A stretch of DNA of 64,000 nucleotides, from NCBI GenBank assembly GCA_902797165.1, contig CADBRU010000008.1, positions 1 through 64,000 on the forward strand, written 5' to 3'. The notes beneath the pieces are model-generated. The model did no database searches, was not told the origin of the DNA, and saw only the letters and a program-made list of their open reading frames with translations. Below are positions 34,913-40,542 of the stretch, in pieces. This DNA is from an uncultured Elusimicrobium sp. (GTDB lineage: Bacteria; Elusimicrobiota; Elusimicrobia; Elusimicrobiales; Elusimicrobiaceae). The stretch's first letter is position 1; every line of letters starts with the position of its first letter. The translations under genes were made by a program, and so were the position numbers.

Positions 34913-35395
34913 ATGAAGAAAGGTTTTACCTTGATTGAATTGTTAGTCAGTGTGTTGATTATCGGAATTTTATCCGGAATAGCCATACCGAATTATATCA
35001 GATCTATCGAGCGGACACGTTCGACGGAAGCCATGGAAATGATTAAATCACTTAATGATTCGGTATATGCTTATGCGGCGGCAAACGGTACTTGTCCGGC
35101 TACTTTCAAAAAACTATTGGTAGATGTGCCGGGTACCATGAATAACGATAGGACGCAAGTTACCTCAAATGGTTTTATATATCACCTTAACAAGGCAACC
35201 AACAGCCCCATTCCGGGCACTTCCTGCGGCGGTGTAGTGGCCGAACGTGAGAACCGCGGATATTTGTTATGGAACCCGTATAAAATAGTGAACCAAACCA
35301 CCAAAGCACGCACGATGGCTTGCACCGCCACGGCGGCAGATGCTATTAAATTGTGTGAAGGTTTCGGGGTTTATACGACAAGCAAACCGTATTAA
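34913..35395 (+). CDS. Type IV prepilin-like protein (orphan, in the dap operon)
   Basis: This 160-residue prepilin has leader MKKG, cleavage before FTLIELLVSVLIIGIL, Glu at mature position 5, and NYIRSIERTRSTEAMEM leading into the globular domain, which contains CP, SCGG, AC and LC cysteines. It begins 11 bp after dapL with AAAGGAG and ends at the operon terminator, so it is probably co-transcribed with dapF-dapL, an unexpected place for a pilin. No pilus machinery lies nearby. Confidence 0.9.
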   Translation: MKKGFTLIELLVSVLIIGILSGIAIPNYIRSIERTRSTEAMEMIKSLNDSVYAYAAANGTCPATFKKLLVDVPGTMNNDRTQVTSNGFIYHLNKATNSPIPGTSCGGVVAERENRGYLLWNPYKIVNQTTKARTMACTATAADAIKLCEGFGVYTTSKPY

Positions 35396-35447: not shown

Positions 35448-36068
35448 CTAGTTTTCTAAATAGACAAGTAGCAAACCTTTACGAAAAGAGATTTCCGTTT
35501 TGGAGGCGGAAATTTCATTGGATAAAGTATGTCCGATATGCTGCATATCCCAATTTTCGTGTTGCACACGGTATTTTACGCCCTTTAGCGTTACATCTAT
35601 GCAAGATGTCAGCGGAATAAAACTGCACCGTGCTCCTTTGCGGGCGGTAAAACATTGGCTTTGTGTTAAAGGCCATAAGGTCCAATTTTTTCCGCAAAAA
35701 TAAATTTCCATTTTACTTTTGTACGGCAAAGCAGAAAGAATATTTCCGAGTGTAAAATCCAATCGTCCACCGGTTGCTCCGGCGATAAAACACGTGTCAA
35801 ATTTTTGTGCGGCAATCCAATCTAAGGCTTTTTCTAAATCGGTATTATCTTGGCGTTTGATATGCAAAAAAGCAACGTCTTTGAGACTTTGACGGGTGAG
35901 GGGGGAAACAGAATCTAAATCTCCGATAACGGCATCGGGCCGAATTTTGGCGGCTAAAGCGCGGTCGGCGCCTGCGTCGGCGGCCAGTACAAAATCAACT
36001 TGGCGGGCTAATTTTTTAAGCCACGGCCCGGTTTCGGAGCCATTACAAATCAGTAGAATTTTCGACAT
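35448..36068 (-). CDS. thiN: Thiamine pyrophosphokinase
   Basis: ThiN transfers pyrophosphate from ATP to thiamine, a salvage step giving TPP. The 206-residue protein has the family motifs AADAGADRAL (about residues 29-38), IGDLDSVSP (about 47-55), KRQDNTDLEKAL (about 72-83) and GATGGRLDFTLGNI (about 97-110). Length is normal. Its start overlaps the end of the SSS symporter gene by 26 bases, so the two are co-translated and probably functionally linked. Confidence 0.94.
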   Translation of the reverse strand: MSKILLICNGSETGPWLKKLARQVDFVLAADAGADRALAAKIRPDAVIGDLDSVSPLTRQSLKDVAFLHIKRQDNTDLEKALDWIAAQKFDTCFIAGATGGRLDFTLGNILSALPYKSKMEIYFCGKNWTLWPLTQSQCFTARKGARCSFIPLTSCIDVTLKGVKYRVQHENWDMQHIGHTLSNEISASKTEISFRKGLLLVYLEN

Positions 36069-37461
36069 AAATTTGAGATCCTTTTTTACATCTAAAAAGT
36101 AAAATAAATCCGCTTGTTATAAGCCCAATATAAAACGCATCTATTTGTGCCCAAAAACCGCTAAGCGGCAGACATTTCCATAAAGTCATTACTGCCGCAC
36201 TGGTTAAGGCACTTGTGACGAATAAACGATCACTGATAGACTTAGGATATATATATCCTAGCAAAATAGGAGCCAGCAAACAGGCCGAGAGATAAGAGCC
36301 TATGGTTAGCCAAATTTCTTTAAAACTACCGTTAAAAAATCGAGCCAAACACGCCGATATAATGCCGACCAAAAATAAAGCGATTCGGTTTGATAGAATT
36401 ACATTTTTAAAACGGTTACGCAGTAAATCAAAACTCAAAGTGTTGGAAGCAATAAATAAATAGGAATTAAGTGTAGATAAAATAATGGCCAAAATACCGG
36501 CGATAAAAAATCCTTTTAATCCGATGGGTAATAATTGTACCGAATAGAAGAAATAGGCTTGCGTAGGTTGCGCTTGCGGCAAGATAGCGCGTGCATAAAG
36601 AGAGCCGAGTGTCGTGCAAATATCGAAACAAAACCAAATGAGGGTGGATATTAAAATGCCTTTTTTAACGATTTGCGGATTTTTAGCCGCAAAGCACCGT
36701 TGGTAAAAACTCGGATCAATCAACGTGGCTAAGGCAATAAATCCCCAAATTAAGGTGTTTAGCCATCCGTTGCCGCCCGTTAAACTAAAATGCGTAGCGG
36801 GTAAATGGGTTGTCAGAAAAGTTGCCCCGCCGAAATGATAAGCGGAAAATAAAACGACTAATAATACCGAAGTACACATCACGAAAAATTGTATTACGTC
36901 GGAAAACACCACCGCTCTAAACCCGCCCCACGCCGTATATAAACACGTAAATAATACTCCGATGATCATTGCGTTCCAAACCGAAATACCGAAAATCATA
37001 TTTAAAAATAAACCCAAACTAAGTACATAAGCCACGGGCAGTACATTGACCAGTGTAAATACGGCCGCCACTTTGGCCGATTTGGGACCGAACATTTGCG
37101 CGGTTAAATCAGGTAGTGTTATAGATTTGTATTTTGCGATTTTATCGACGATAAAAAAGGCAAAAATTAAATAAGCGATATACCAAAAAAATCCTTGTGT
37201 AACAAAATTGTAAATACCGTAATTAAATGTAATTTCGTTTACGCCGAAAATGCCGCCATACCACGTAGCCACCAAAGTAGCCACGAATAAAGGTAAGGTG
37301 AGTTGACGGCCCATTAACAGATAATCAAGCGGGGTGTTTTTGGTGTGTTTTTTGCGGTAATTTCCGTAGAGCGCCGCGGCAAAAGTCAAAGCAAGTACCA
37401 AGCCGAAAATGAGCCAATCGGGCGTAGTCAAATAGGAAATGATGGTTAATTTTGATTGCAT
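36043..37461 (-). CDS. Sodium:solute symporter family protein, possibly thiamine uptake
   Basis: This 472-residue membrane protein has about 13 hydrophobic segments and belongs to the SSS family (pantothenate/proline symporter type), with the early LLMGRQLTLPLFVATLVATWYGG region (split: LLMGRQLTLP, LVATWYGGIFG) typical of it. The substrate is not visible in the sequence. The 26-base overlap with thiN suggests a thiamine or thiamine-precursor substrate; SSS-type ThiV transporters have been proposed from TPP-riboswitch regulons in other organisms. No TPP riboswitch fits in the 63-bp gap upstream. A TATAAT box directly abuts the assigned ATG, so the true start or promoter is uncertain. Confidence 0.8.
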   Translation of the reverse strand: MQSKLTIISYLTTPDWLIFGLVLALTFAAALYGNYRKKHTKNTPLDYLLMGRQLTLPLFVATLVATWYGGIFGVNEITFNYGIYNFVTQGFFWYIAYLIFAFFIVDKIAKYKSITLPDLTAQMFGPKSAKVAAVFTLVNVLPVAYVLSLGLFLNMIFGISVWNAMIIGVLFTCLYTAWGGFRAVVFSDVIQFFVMCTSVLLVVLFSAYHFGGATFLTTHLPATHFSLTGGNGWLNTLIWGFIALATLIDPSFYQRCFAAKNPQIVKKGILISTLIWFCFDICTTLGSLYARAILPQAQPTQAYFFYSVQLLPIGLKGFFIAGILAIILSTLNSYLFIASNTLSFDLLRNRFKNVILSNRIALFLVGIISACLARFFNGSFKEIWLTIGSYLSACLLAPILLGYIYPKSISDRLFVTSALTSAAVMTLWKCLPLSGFWAQIDAFYIGLITSGFILLFRCKKGSQIYVENSTDL

Positions 37462-37524: not shown

Positions 37525-38991
37525 TTACCAATGCATAAAATACGGCGGTACGAGCGCGGCAAAAGATAACAAATACATGATAATCAGCAGCGGCAATAGC
37601 CATTTAAGCCATTTGGCAAACGGAATACTGGCAAAACCGATGGCAGCCAAAGTAACCGGATCGGTCGGGAAAATCATATTAAGCCAACTGCCGCCCAACT
37701 GGAACGAAAGTACCATCGTTTGGCGCGTAATGCCGATTAAATCGGCCAGCGGGGCCAAGATGGGCATAGTTAGCACGGCTTTGCTGGAGCCGGACGGGAT
37801 AAAGAAATCAATGACCGTCTGCAACATCATAGCCGCCCACGAGGCGCAAATCGGGTGCAATTTGGAAATACCTTTAGACATAAAATCTAAAACGGTATCT
37901 AAAATTTGTCCGTTTTGAGCAATAATTACGATGGCTTGCGCAAAACATAAAGTAATGGCAATAGAGGCCATACCGCGCACACCTTCAAAGAAACTGTCGG
38001 TAAATTCGTTCATGGATAGTTTGCCCAAAATAGCGGCGGCAAAACCGATTCCCAAAAACAGCGCGGCAATTTCCGTAATATACCAACCGCTGTCTTCTAA
38101 ATGTAGTAGCGTCATTACATCAATGCCGGTCCAACTTTGAATCAGCGCGCATACTTGCGGTTTAAGTACGCCGAGCACCAATAGTACCATACCGGTACCG
38201 AAGGCAAGCAGTACCAGTTTTTGACGCGTTGTGATTTTGGAAACTTCTTGATTAATGCCTAGTTCATGGCGTTTTAATTGGTCATGCTGATAGGTAATAC
38301 TTTTGGTGGGATCTTTTTGGATGCGGTGCGCGTAAATCATGAAATAAATAATTACCACCGTGGTACAAATAGCCCAAATAGCCACACGATACCCTAAACC
38401 GGAGTAAAGCGGTACTTGGGCAATTCCCTGTGCAATACCGACGGTAAACGGATTTGTAAATGCGGCGGCAAAACCCACACCCGCACCTACAAACGGAATA
38501 GCGGTACCGATGGCAGAGTCATATCCTAAAGAAAGAGCAAGGGGGATTAAAATGGGAATAAAAATCAATGTTTCTTCGCACATGCCGAAGGTCGCACCGC
38601 AGAGAGAAAACAAAATCAGTCCCATCGGAATAAATAGAAATTTAAATTTCGGGTTGCGTCCGAAAAACAAACTGGCTTCTTTAATACCCGCGGCAATAGC
38701 GCCGGTTTTTTCAATAACGGCAAGTACGCCGCCGATTAAAAGTAAGAAAGCAATAATCAGCGCGGTATTTTCAAACCCTGTTACAGGGGCTTTGAGTACA
38801 TCAAAGATGCCTTGAGGACTGCTGGCTACGGCATGATAAGTGCCGGGAACAACCACTTCGCGTCCGTCGGTAAGCACGCGGTCATAAGAGCCACTGGGCA
38901 CGAGCCAAGTCATCACGGTCACCAGTAAAATAATTGAAAAGATAATACTGAGTGTATTGAATTGCGGCAATTTAAACGTCCATTTTTTCAT
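37525..38991 (-). CDS. YfcC family membrane transporter
   Basis: This 488-residue protein has about 12 membrane segments and matches the YfcC family: LVPSGSYDRVLTDGREVVVPGTY near residues 30-52 (split: VPSGSYDRV, REVVVPGTYH), GGVLAVIEKTGAI, PLALSLGYDSAIGTAIPFVG and IPSGSSKAVLTMPILAPLAD. YfcC proteins belong to the ion-transporter superfamily and are proposed amino acid or carboxylate carriers; the substrate is unproven. GGAGAA precedes the ATG, and a highly structured leader of about 135 nt lies upstream, implying control by a metabolite or RNA. Confidence 0.88.
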   Translation of the reverse strand: MKKWTFKLPQFNTLSIIFSIILLVTVMTWLVPSGSYDRVLTDGREVVVPGTYHAVASSPQGIFDVLKAPVTGFENTALIIAFLLLIGGVLAVIEKTGAIAAGIKEASLFFGRNPKFKFLFIPMGLILFSLCGATFGMCEETLIFIPILIPLALSLGYDSAIGTAIPFVGAGVGFAAAFTNPFTVGIAQGIAQVPLYSGLGYRVAIWAICTTVVIIYFMIYAHRIQKDPTKSITYQHDQLKRHELGINQEVSKITTRQKLVLLAFGTGMVLLVLGVLKPQVCALIQSWTGIDVMTLLHLEDSGWYITEIAALFLGIGFAAAILGKLSMNEFTDSFFEGVRGMASIAITLCFAQAIVIIAQNGQILDTVLDFMSKGISKLHPICASWAAMMLQTVIDFFIPSGSSKAVLTMPILAPLADLIGITRQTMVLSFQLGGSWLNMIFPTDPVTLAAIGFASIPFAKWLKWLLPLLIIMYLLSFAALVPPYFMHW

Positions 38992-39139
38992 TTCTATTAT
39001 TCTCCATTTGATTTATACAAAATAATACGGATTTTTACCTCTGTACCACCCGGCTGTCGAAGTATCGATACCATAGGGCCCTGTAGGGTTGGCATAGCCA
39101 ACAAGTACAAAAATAAAAATCCGTCTTTTTTATATTATA
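38992..39139 (-). promoter_or_regulatory. Riboswitch-like structured leader of yfcC
   Basis: TATAAT (39139..39134) predicts a start near 39127. Three bases later ACGGATTTTTA (39124..39114) pairs perfectly with TAAAAATCCGT (39037..39027), an 11-bp closing helix around about 76 nt. Inside are the hairpin TTGGC-TAT-GCCAA, CCAACCC that can pair with GGGTGG (one bulge), and palindromic AGGGCCCT and GTATCGATAC. After the closing helix, TATTATT can pair with AATAATA beside the Shine-Dalgarno GGAG, a possible translation switch. The GGGTGGTAC segment recalls a T-box core, but the rest does not fit. No known class was recognised. Confidence 0.6.
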
Positions 39140-39159
39140 CTAAAACATGCAATGAATTA

Positions 39160-40542
39160 CTAAAAATACAAGTCACGTTTTCCACTCTTGATTTTTGCCA
39201 AATTATCGTCAATGAGTTTGCGGATAGCAGACCCTTCGGCAAAACTTTCTTTGGCGGTGGAATTAATCAATGCGTAGCCTTTTTCTTTGAGCGGGGCCGG
39301 CGCAAAATCTTCCAAATACTCGGCAAAGGTAAACATGGCATTGGGCAGACAATGTTTTTTAATCAGCCCCGGTTTTGCCATATCCATAAAGTCTTTACCC
39401 ACGCGGCCCAAACGGTAGCAACCCGTGCAGAAAGACGGCATATGTTTGGCATCTACCACTGCATCAATCACTTCTGCCAAACTGCGCTCGTCAGTTAGCG
39501 TAAACTGGCTGCCGTTTTGCTTATCGTATGAATAGCCGCCCGGGTTAACGCGGGACGCCGCGGAAATTTGAGACACGCCCAATTCCAAGCATGCATTACG
39601 CATAGCGGGCGATTCGCGCGTACTTAAAATAATACCCGTATAAGGTACCGCTAAGCGGATAACTGCTACTACTTTCTTGAAATCATTATCGGTCAGTTGA
39701 TACGGCGGGTGCAAACTAAAATCAGAACCTTCCGCCGGCTCTATGCGTGGAATAGAAATAGTGTGCGGACCGACGCCATAAGTGCGGTCCAAATAAAACG
39801 AATGTTCCAAGGTGGCCAGCACTTCATATTTGTAATCATATAAACCGAGCAGGGGCCCGATCCCGACGTCATTAATACCCGCTTTCAAAGCGCGGTCCAT
39901 GGCGTCCAAACGGAATTGATAATCTTTTTTCGCACCGGCCAAATGCAACTTTTCATAAGTTTCTTTGTGATAGGTTTCTTGGAAAAGTTGATAAGTGCCG
40001 ATACCGCATTTTTTGAGTTCTTCAAATTCTGCTTGTACAAGCGGCGCGATATTTACGTTTACGCGGCGGATATTCTGCCCGTTCCAACGGGTCTCGTAAA
40101 TGGCTTTAATACTGTCGTAAACATATTGCAAACCGCCGCCCGGGTATGCCTCACCCGCCACCATTAAAATACGTTTGTGGCCTTGTTGCAAAAGCGCGGT
40201 GACTTCTTGATGAATTTCGTCCATGGTGCTGGCATGGCGTTTGAGTTTGGTATTGCTGCGGCGGAACGCACAATAAATGCATTCGTTCGTGCAAATATTA
40301 GAAATGTAAAGGGGGGCAAAAAGTACAATGCGGTTACCGTAAATTTCTTCTTTGACGTATTTGGCCGCATCAAATAATTTTTGCAAAAGTTTTTCGTCGG
40401 TAATGTTTAAGAGTACCGCGGTTTCTTCCAAAGAAATACCTTTGAGTTCTTTGGCTTTATTTAAGATATCCGTCACCTCGGCGTCTGTGTGAGACTTGGC
40501 TTTTTCCAAGGTTCGTTGCAGTTTTTCATCATCTATAATCAT
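39160..40542 (-). CDS. hydG: [FeFe]-hydrogenase maturase HydG
   Basis: HydG is a radical SAM tyrosine lyase that makes the CO and cyanide ligands of the hydrogenase H-cluster. The 460-residue protein has the radical SAM cluster CTNECIYCAF (Cx3Cx2C, about residues 85-92), a ThiH-like core, and the C-terminal cluster motif CTGCYRLGRVG (Cx2C, about residue 390) that distinguishes HydG from ThiH. It implies fermentative hydrogen metabolism. hydE and hydF are not in the window. A TAAAAT box ends six bases before the ATG. Confidence 0.95.
   Translation of the reverse strand: MIIDDEKLQRTLEKAKSHTDAEVTDILNKAKELKGISLEETAVLLNITDEKLLQKLFDAAKYVKEEIYGNRIVLFAPLYISNICTNECIYCAFRRSNTKLKRHASTMDEIHQEVTALLQQGHKRILMVAGEAYPGGGLQYVYDSIKAIYETRWNGQNIRRVNVNIAPLVQAEFEELKKCGIGTYQLFQETYHKETYEKLHLAGAKKDYQFRLDAMDRALKAGINDVGIGPLLGLYDYKYEVLATLEHSFYLDRTYGVGPHTISIPRIEPAEGSDFSLHPPYQLTDNDFKKVVAVIRLAVPYTGIILSTRESPAMRNACLELGVSQISAASRVNPGGYSYDKQNGSQFTLTDERSLAEVIDAVVDAKHMPSFCTGCYRLGRVGKDFMDMAKPGLIKKHCLPNAMFTFAEYLEDFAPAPLKEKGYALINSTAKESFAEGSAIRKLIDDNLAKIKSGKRDLYF

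Follow-up and report, generated by a model that had tools for sequence, protein, structure and literature searches.

The window, the whole 64,000-nucleotide stretch of DNA analyzed here, raises the question of what the 5′ leader of its yfcC gene does. An earlier note had proposed a new riboswitch or thermosensor at this leader, laid out as an aptamer plus expression platform before a transporter gene. Our analysis indicates that a folded RNA precedes a vitamin B1 operon in one genus of gut bacteria, and that this RNA probably acts as a switch for gene control, of a class not described before.

Architecture and Fold of the yfcC Leader

All features described below lie on the minus strand unless noted. 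The conserved RNA element (model R1, about 105 nt) spans 39024..39127, as judged from alignments and cmsearch (109.3 bits, E 6.8e-23). Positions 39124-39114 (ACGGATTTTTA) and 39037-39027 (TAAAAATCCGT) form a perfect 11-bp pairing, exactly where the earlier note had placed it. This helix (P1) extends inward, UUUUUGUAC with GUACAGAGG, to approximately 21 bp in the window, and its inner part is rich in G-U pairs. By fold and alignment, the P1 5′ strand lies at 39105..39124, with the inner half UUUUUGUAC invariant, and the P1 3′ strand (GUACAGAGGUAAAAAUCCGU) at 39027..39046, with covariation in its lower part.

The region enclosed by P1 is predicted to consist of P2, a weak CCC-UACA-GGG hairpin (P2b) and P3, in agreement with the internal hairpins expected in the core. 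P2 (39088..39102) is variable in length and sequence and covaries. The invariant UACAGGG (39079..39085) provides the loop and the 3′ side of P2b. P3 (39049..39078; CCC-UAU-GGUAUC ... GACAGCC-GGG) has an invariant base and a covarying tip. The minimum free energy of 38980-39130(-) was -48.9 kcal/mol, compared with -28.8 ± 3.8 kcal/mol for shuffled sequences (z -5.24), and 0 of 200 dinucleotide shuffles folded as well as the leader.

A TATAAT -10 box at 39134..39139 places the transcription start near 39127, three bases before the helix arm as had been predicted. The box reads TANAAT in all 18 homologous leaders and ends 6-9 nt before the element. Directly 3′ of P1, a U-rich linker (38992..39026), which is terminator-like by U-run counts and leader folds, contains the Shine-Dalgarno sequence GGAG (39005-39002).

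Distribution, Selection and Covariation

Relatives were fetched with the YfcC of the window as the query. The same leader was found at YfcC orthologues with 77-89% identity, and it was not present at those near 72%. A covariance model built from 11 leaders detected the element in 18 of the 66 genomes of the genus (Avelusimicrobium), one copy each. Under stricter filters, the search of 341 genomes of the phylum returned only the same 18 and no element in other genera. Across 84,980 species, a degenerate pattern matched 15 loci in Elusimicrobiota, among them one labelled Candidatus Avelusimicrobium. It also matched five further loci, none of which the covariance model supported, and the model detected no element in viral contigs. 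The element was 5′ of yfcC in each leader inspected. Its distance to the start codon is fixed at 33-43 nt in the 18 species, one of which has a replaced core. In the YfcC tree, the genomes with the element group in a single, fully supported clade, which includes the genome with the replaced core (G034).

Among 17 species, 61 of the 64 core columns are invariant, and the corresponding number for fourfold-degenerate sites of the adjacent yfcC is 5 of 142 (mean fourfold identity 0.53). Parsimony on the YfcC tree revealed at least 10 independent compensatory double changes, summed over pairs, in lower P1, P2 and the P3 tip. With an alignment that had not been adjusted to the structure, both partners had changed in nine pairs, whereas slid registers gave 0-2 such pairs and shuffles 4.1. 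Since some of the pair variants are G-U, the function can be assigned to RNA of the same sense as yfcC. Hardly any variation is seen in upper P1, in the CCC-UACA-GGG hairpin or at the P3 base; because these parts are near-invariant, their pairing lies outside the covariation evidence.

The element is thus structured and under purifying selection, and the leader is almost certainly a real, conserved, structured RNA. The 5′ UTR contains a conserved structured domain with covariation, as is expected of riboswitches in general. Very probably the element is cis-regulatory.

Comparison with Known RNA Classes

The window and six homologues were searched against Rfam 15 at gathering and relaxed thresholds. 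No family reached its cut-off at the leader; the best match up to E = 10 was antisense psbNH (E 2.1), and the six homologous loci gave no Rfam match at the leader. The view that no known aptamer class is recognizable has therefore held. The earlier note had named two results that would speak against its proposal, a match to a known class and an absence of covariation among homologous leaders; neither was obtained. A tRNA or T-box-like leader was also considered and rejected, with no tRNA found and no Rfam match.

Two known riboswitches occur before comparable genes elsewhere. The TPP riboswitch (RF00059) controls thiamine transport and salvage genes, including the SSS symporter gene thiV of SAR11, whose product is a likely HMP importer (PMC11452348); the leader matches it neither in sequence nor in structure. 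The lysine riboswitch (RF00168) is found in front of a yfcC gene in C. difficile (PMC11477304), and the leader does not match it.

The closest likeness in layout is to the HMP-PP (thiS motif) riboswitch, in which a terminator with a stem rich in G-U pairs contains the aptamer (PMC6478431). Both have a conserved aptamer, here a putative one, in one long, terminator-like, G-U-rich hairpin followed by a U-run, and both are associated with thiamine-related genes. However, the HMP-PP aptamer is unusually small, with its terminator located near nucleotide 66 of the construct that was tested (PMC6478431), whereas the leader element is approximately 105 nt long, with a multi-branched core and a different sequence; the two are set apart by published size and branching. 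They also differ in context, in that neither ThiC nor an above-cutoff ThiE was found in the genus of the leader. With the orphan riboswitch candidates of comparative-genomics surveys, the element shares a conserved core, covarying stems, a fixed position before a transporter gene and the lack of an assigned ligand. In contrast to those candidates, it is unmatched by Rfam 15 and was found in one genus only.

The Downstream Operon and Thiamine

The order of the operon is element-yfcC-(yfcC2)-Na+/SSS symporter-thiN. By gene and domain annotation, the first gene, yfcC (37525..38991), encodes a DcuC/YfcC family transporter. It is followed by a sodium:solute symporter family gene (36043..37461), for which the context suggests thiamine or HMP as the substrate, and by thiN (35448..36068), encoding thiamine pyrophosphokinase. 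The start of thiN overlaps the symporter stop by 26 bases (window 36043-36068), which suggests translational coupling.

thiN is present as a single copy in 28 of 31 genomes, in the yfcC operon, and is the only thiamine pyrophosphokinase gene of the genus in the genomes searched. One genome without thiN (G003) is also without yfcC and the symporter. ThiC was absent in 41 of 41 genomes of the genus, and there was no match above the cut-off for ThiE in the 41 genomes or for ThiT in 31. Known thiamine regulators are lacking as well: the TPP riboswitch was found in 0 of 66 genomes of the genus and not at E ≤ 10 in the leader, and the same result was obtained for the lysine riboswitch. The single thiN and these negative results make the operon probably the uptake and activation route from imported thiamine (vitamin B1) to TPP. 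The symporter would then carry thiamine. The amino acids, guanidine and polyamines that the earlier note had put forward as ligands are unsupported, given that the genus has its sole thiamine pyrophosphokinase locus in this operon and has no lysine riboswitch in the genomes searched; vitamin B1, and not basic amino acids, is what the gene context suggests.

We consider that there is about an even chance that the clade-specific leader is a small-molecule riboswitch of an orphan class, controlling the thiamine-salvage operon yfcC-(yfcC2)-SSS-thiN. Ligand binding, termination and the identity of the ligand are what we infer for the leader; since the element occurs in one clade and at one locus only, gene association does not triangulate the ligand. 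It is rather unlikely that thiamine or TPP is sensed here by a second class of riboswitch, one without relation to the TPP riboswitch and with the aptamer set into a long stem that closes at the terminator. Such a class, with the same small chance, would have arisen in a gut Elusimicrobiota lineage in which neither TPP riboswitches nor ThiC were found. If confirmed, the leader would add a riboswitch class, possibly a second natural solution to vitamin B1 sensing beside the very widespread TPP riboswitch. Other genera of the family also have the yfcC-SSS-thiN operon, in their case lacking the element, and that the operon works there in this form counts against the riboswitch reading.

Expression Platform and Proposed Mechanism

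Shine-Dalgarno region: The second stem that had been suggested next to the Shine-Dalgarno sequence exists in the window, where the probability that the sequence is unpaired is 0.26, but it is not conserved. Over 18 leaders this probability ranged from 0.06 to 0.98 with unrelated folds, and no conserved sequestering stem was found. Thus, of the proposed layout, the structured and selected RNA and its placement between promoter and start codon stand, whereas the expression platform based on this stem does not. A thermosensor is unlikely, because neither the upper stem nor the core varies, both are very stable, and the Shine-Dalgarno pairing is not conserved.

U-rich tract: In the 18 leaders, U accounts for 7-11 of the 12 nt directly 3′ of P1. 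The long P1 stem ending at this tract resembles a terminator-embedded aptamer. However, orthologous leaders without the element have 5-9 U in 12 nt, and therefore the tract may not be a terminator.

Alternative pairing: UACAGGG has an alternative partner in prefix folds, 5′ UUUUGUA at 39112-39106. This helix (P1′), a hypothetical antiterminator, can pair in all 17 sequences and is nearly invariant. In prefix folds it was partly populated before the P1 3′ strand emerges (0.0-0.94) and vanished afterwards. The single natural variant, UACAAGG in G010, keeps or strengthens P1′ and breaks the P2b hairpin; that it favors P1′ over P2b is suggestive, as a single event. Since three of the seven pairs are G-U, chance complementarity is a live alternative for P1′.

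In the riboswitch reading, the transcript would begin at the base of P1, and during elongation the 5′ strand, P2 and P3 would build the conserved core. When the P1 3′ strand emerges, P1 would zip closed, ending in the U-rich tract, and this closed form may be the OFF state, in which transcription terminates or translation is hindered. Binding of a metabolite to the invariant core would shift P1 closure, with P1′ as the candidate competing helix. The logic of feedback suggests that thiamine or TPP would repress. Because P1 is so stable in silico, ligand-dependent closure would need kinetic control.

Natural Variants of the Leader

G034 (L048, L104): P1 is retained with pairing-preserving changes, and the core is replaced by an unrelated sequence. 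This is possibly a decayed or re-targeted sensor.

G071 (L153:4780-4834): The element is cleanly absent, and the promoter is followed directly by a U-rich untranslated region and the start codon. The YfcC is 87% identical to that of the window. Thus, G071 is a member of the clade that lost the element, a natural deletion.

The leader of a sister (L026) aligns by eye with the linker. From G071 and G034, the element behaves as a module between the promoter and an older 5′ UTR, and it is dispensable, since it was lost in the one and its core replaced in the other. If confirmed, this would mean that a young, lineage-restricted RNA sensor can be set between an existing promoter and 5′ UTR. G071 and G034 are natural controls in close relatives and make the question directly testable.

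Alternative Explanations

The same structural and selection evidence would be expected of a leader recognized by a protein, either for autoregulation or by a global RNA-binding regulator, whose binding alters termination or translation of the operon. The narrow phylogenetic range is also common for such leaders. However, approximately 60 invariant nucleotides over the junction, stem and hairpin bases exceed what most protein sites need, and the operon contains no candidate RNA-binding protein. We regard this explanation as unlikely.

The predicted 5′ end lies 3 nt from the start of P1, and G034 has kept this helix despite its replaced core. These features would suit a stabilizer or processing element, in which the 5′-end stem would protect the transcript or serve as an RNase III cleavage site, and nothing would be sensed. 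A plain stabilizer needs neither 61 invariant core positions nor an invariant G-U-rich inner stem, and hence this role is improbable.

The promoter, the closed 105-nt fold and the U-rich tract could also produce a separate trans-acting small RNA, ended by the P1 hairpin and U-tract, possibly together with attenuation. This is quite doubtful given the fixed position of the element before the start codon. Moreover, the sequence that follows the element has neither the space for a separate yfcC promoter nor a conserved one, and the yfcC mRNA must therefore run through the element. Cis-regulation by the leader is strongly implied.

A compact, nearly invariant core might also belong to a self-cleaving ribozyme or another catalytic RNA, but no Rfam ribozyme matched up to E 10, and we judge this very improbable. 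Finally, a leader-peptide attenuator starting at the AUG in CUAUGG, which is kept in the 17 leaders with the core, has a virtually negligible chance, contradicted by the loss of frame: the downstream frame is 0 in eight and 2 in nine sequences, and the lengths range from 20 codons to running into yfcC, with no conserved peptide.

Other Features of the Locus

An antisense ORF at 38962-39498(+) was rejected as a conserved frame, because the P2 lengths differ by non-multiples of three. Upstream, approximately 20 bases separate the -10 box from the end of hydG, which encodes the [FeFe]-hydrogenase maturase (window 39134-39160). The gap between them holds a canonical terminator in several relatives, and none is apparent in the window. 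Prepilin-like genes with the N-terminus MKKGFTLIELLV, including the one at window 34913-35395, belong to a family scattered around the locus in the genus.
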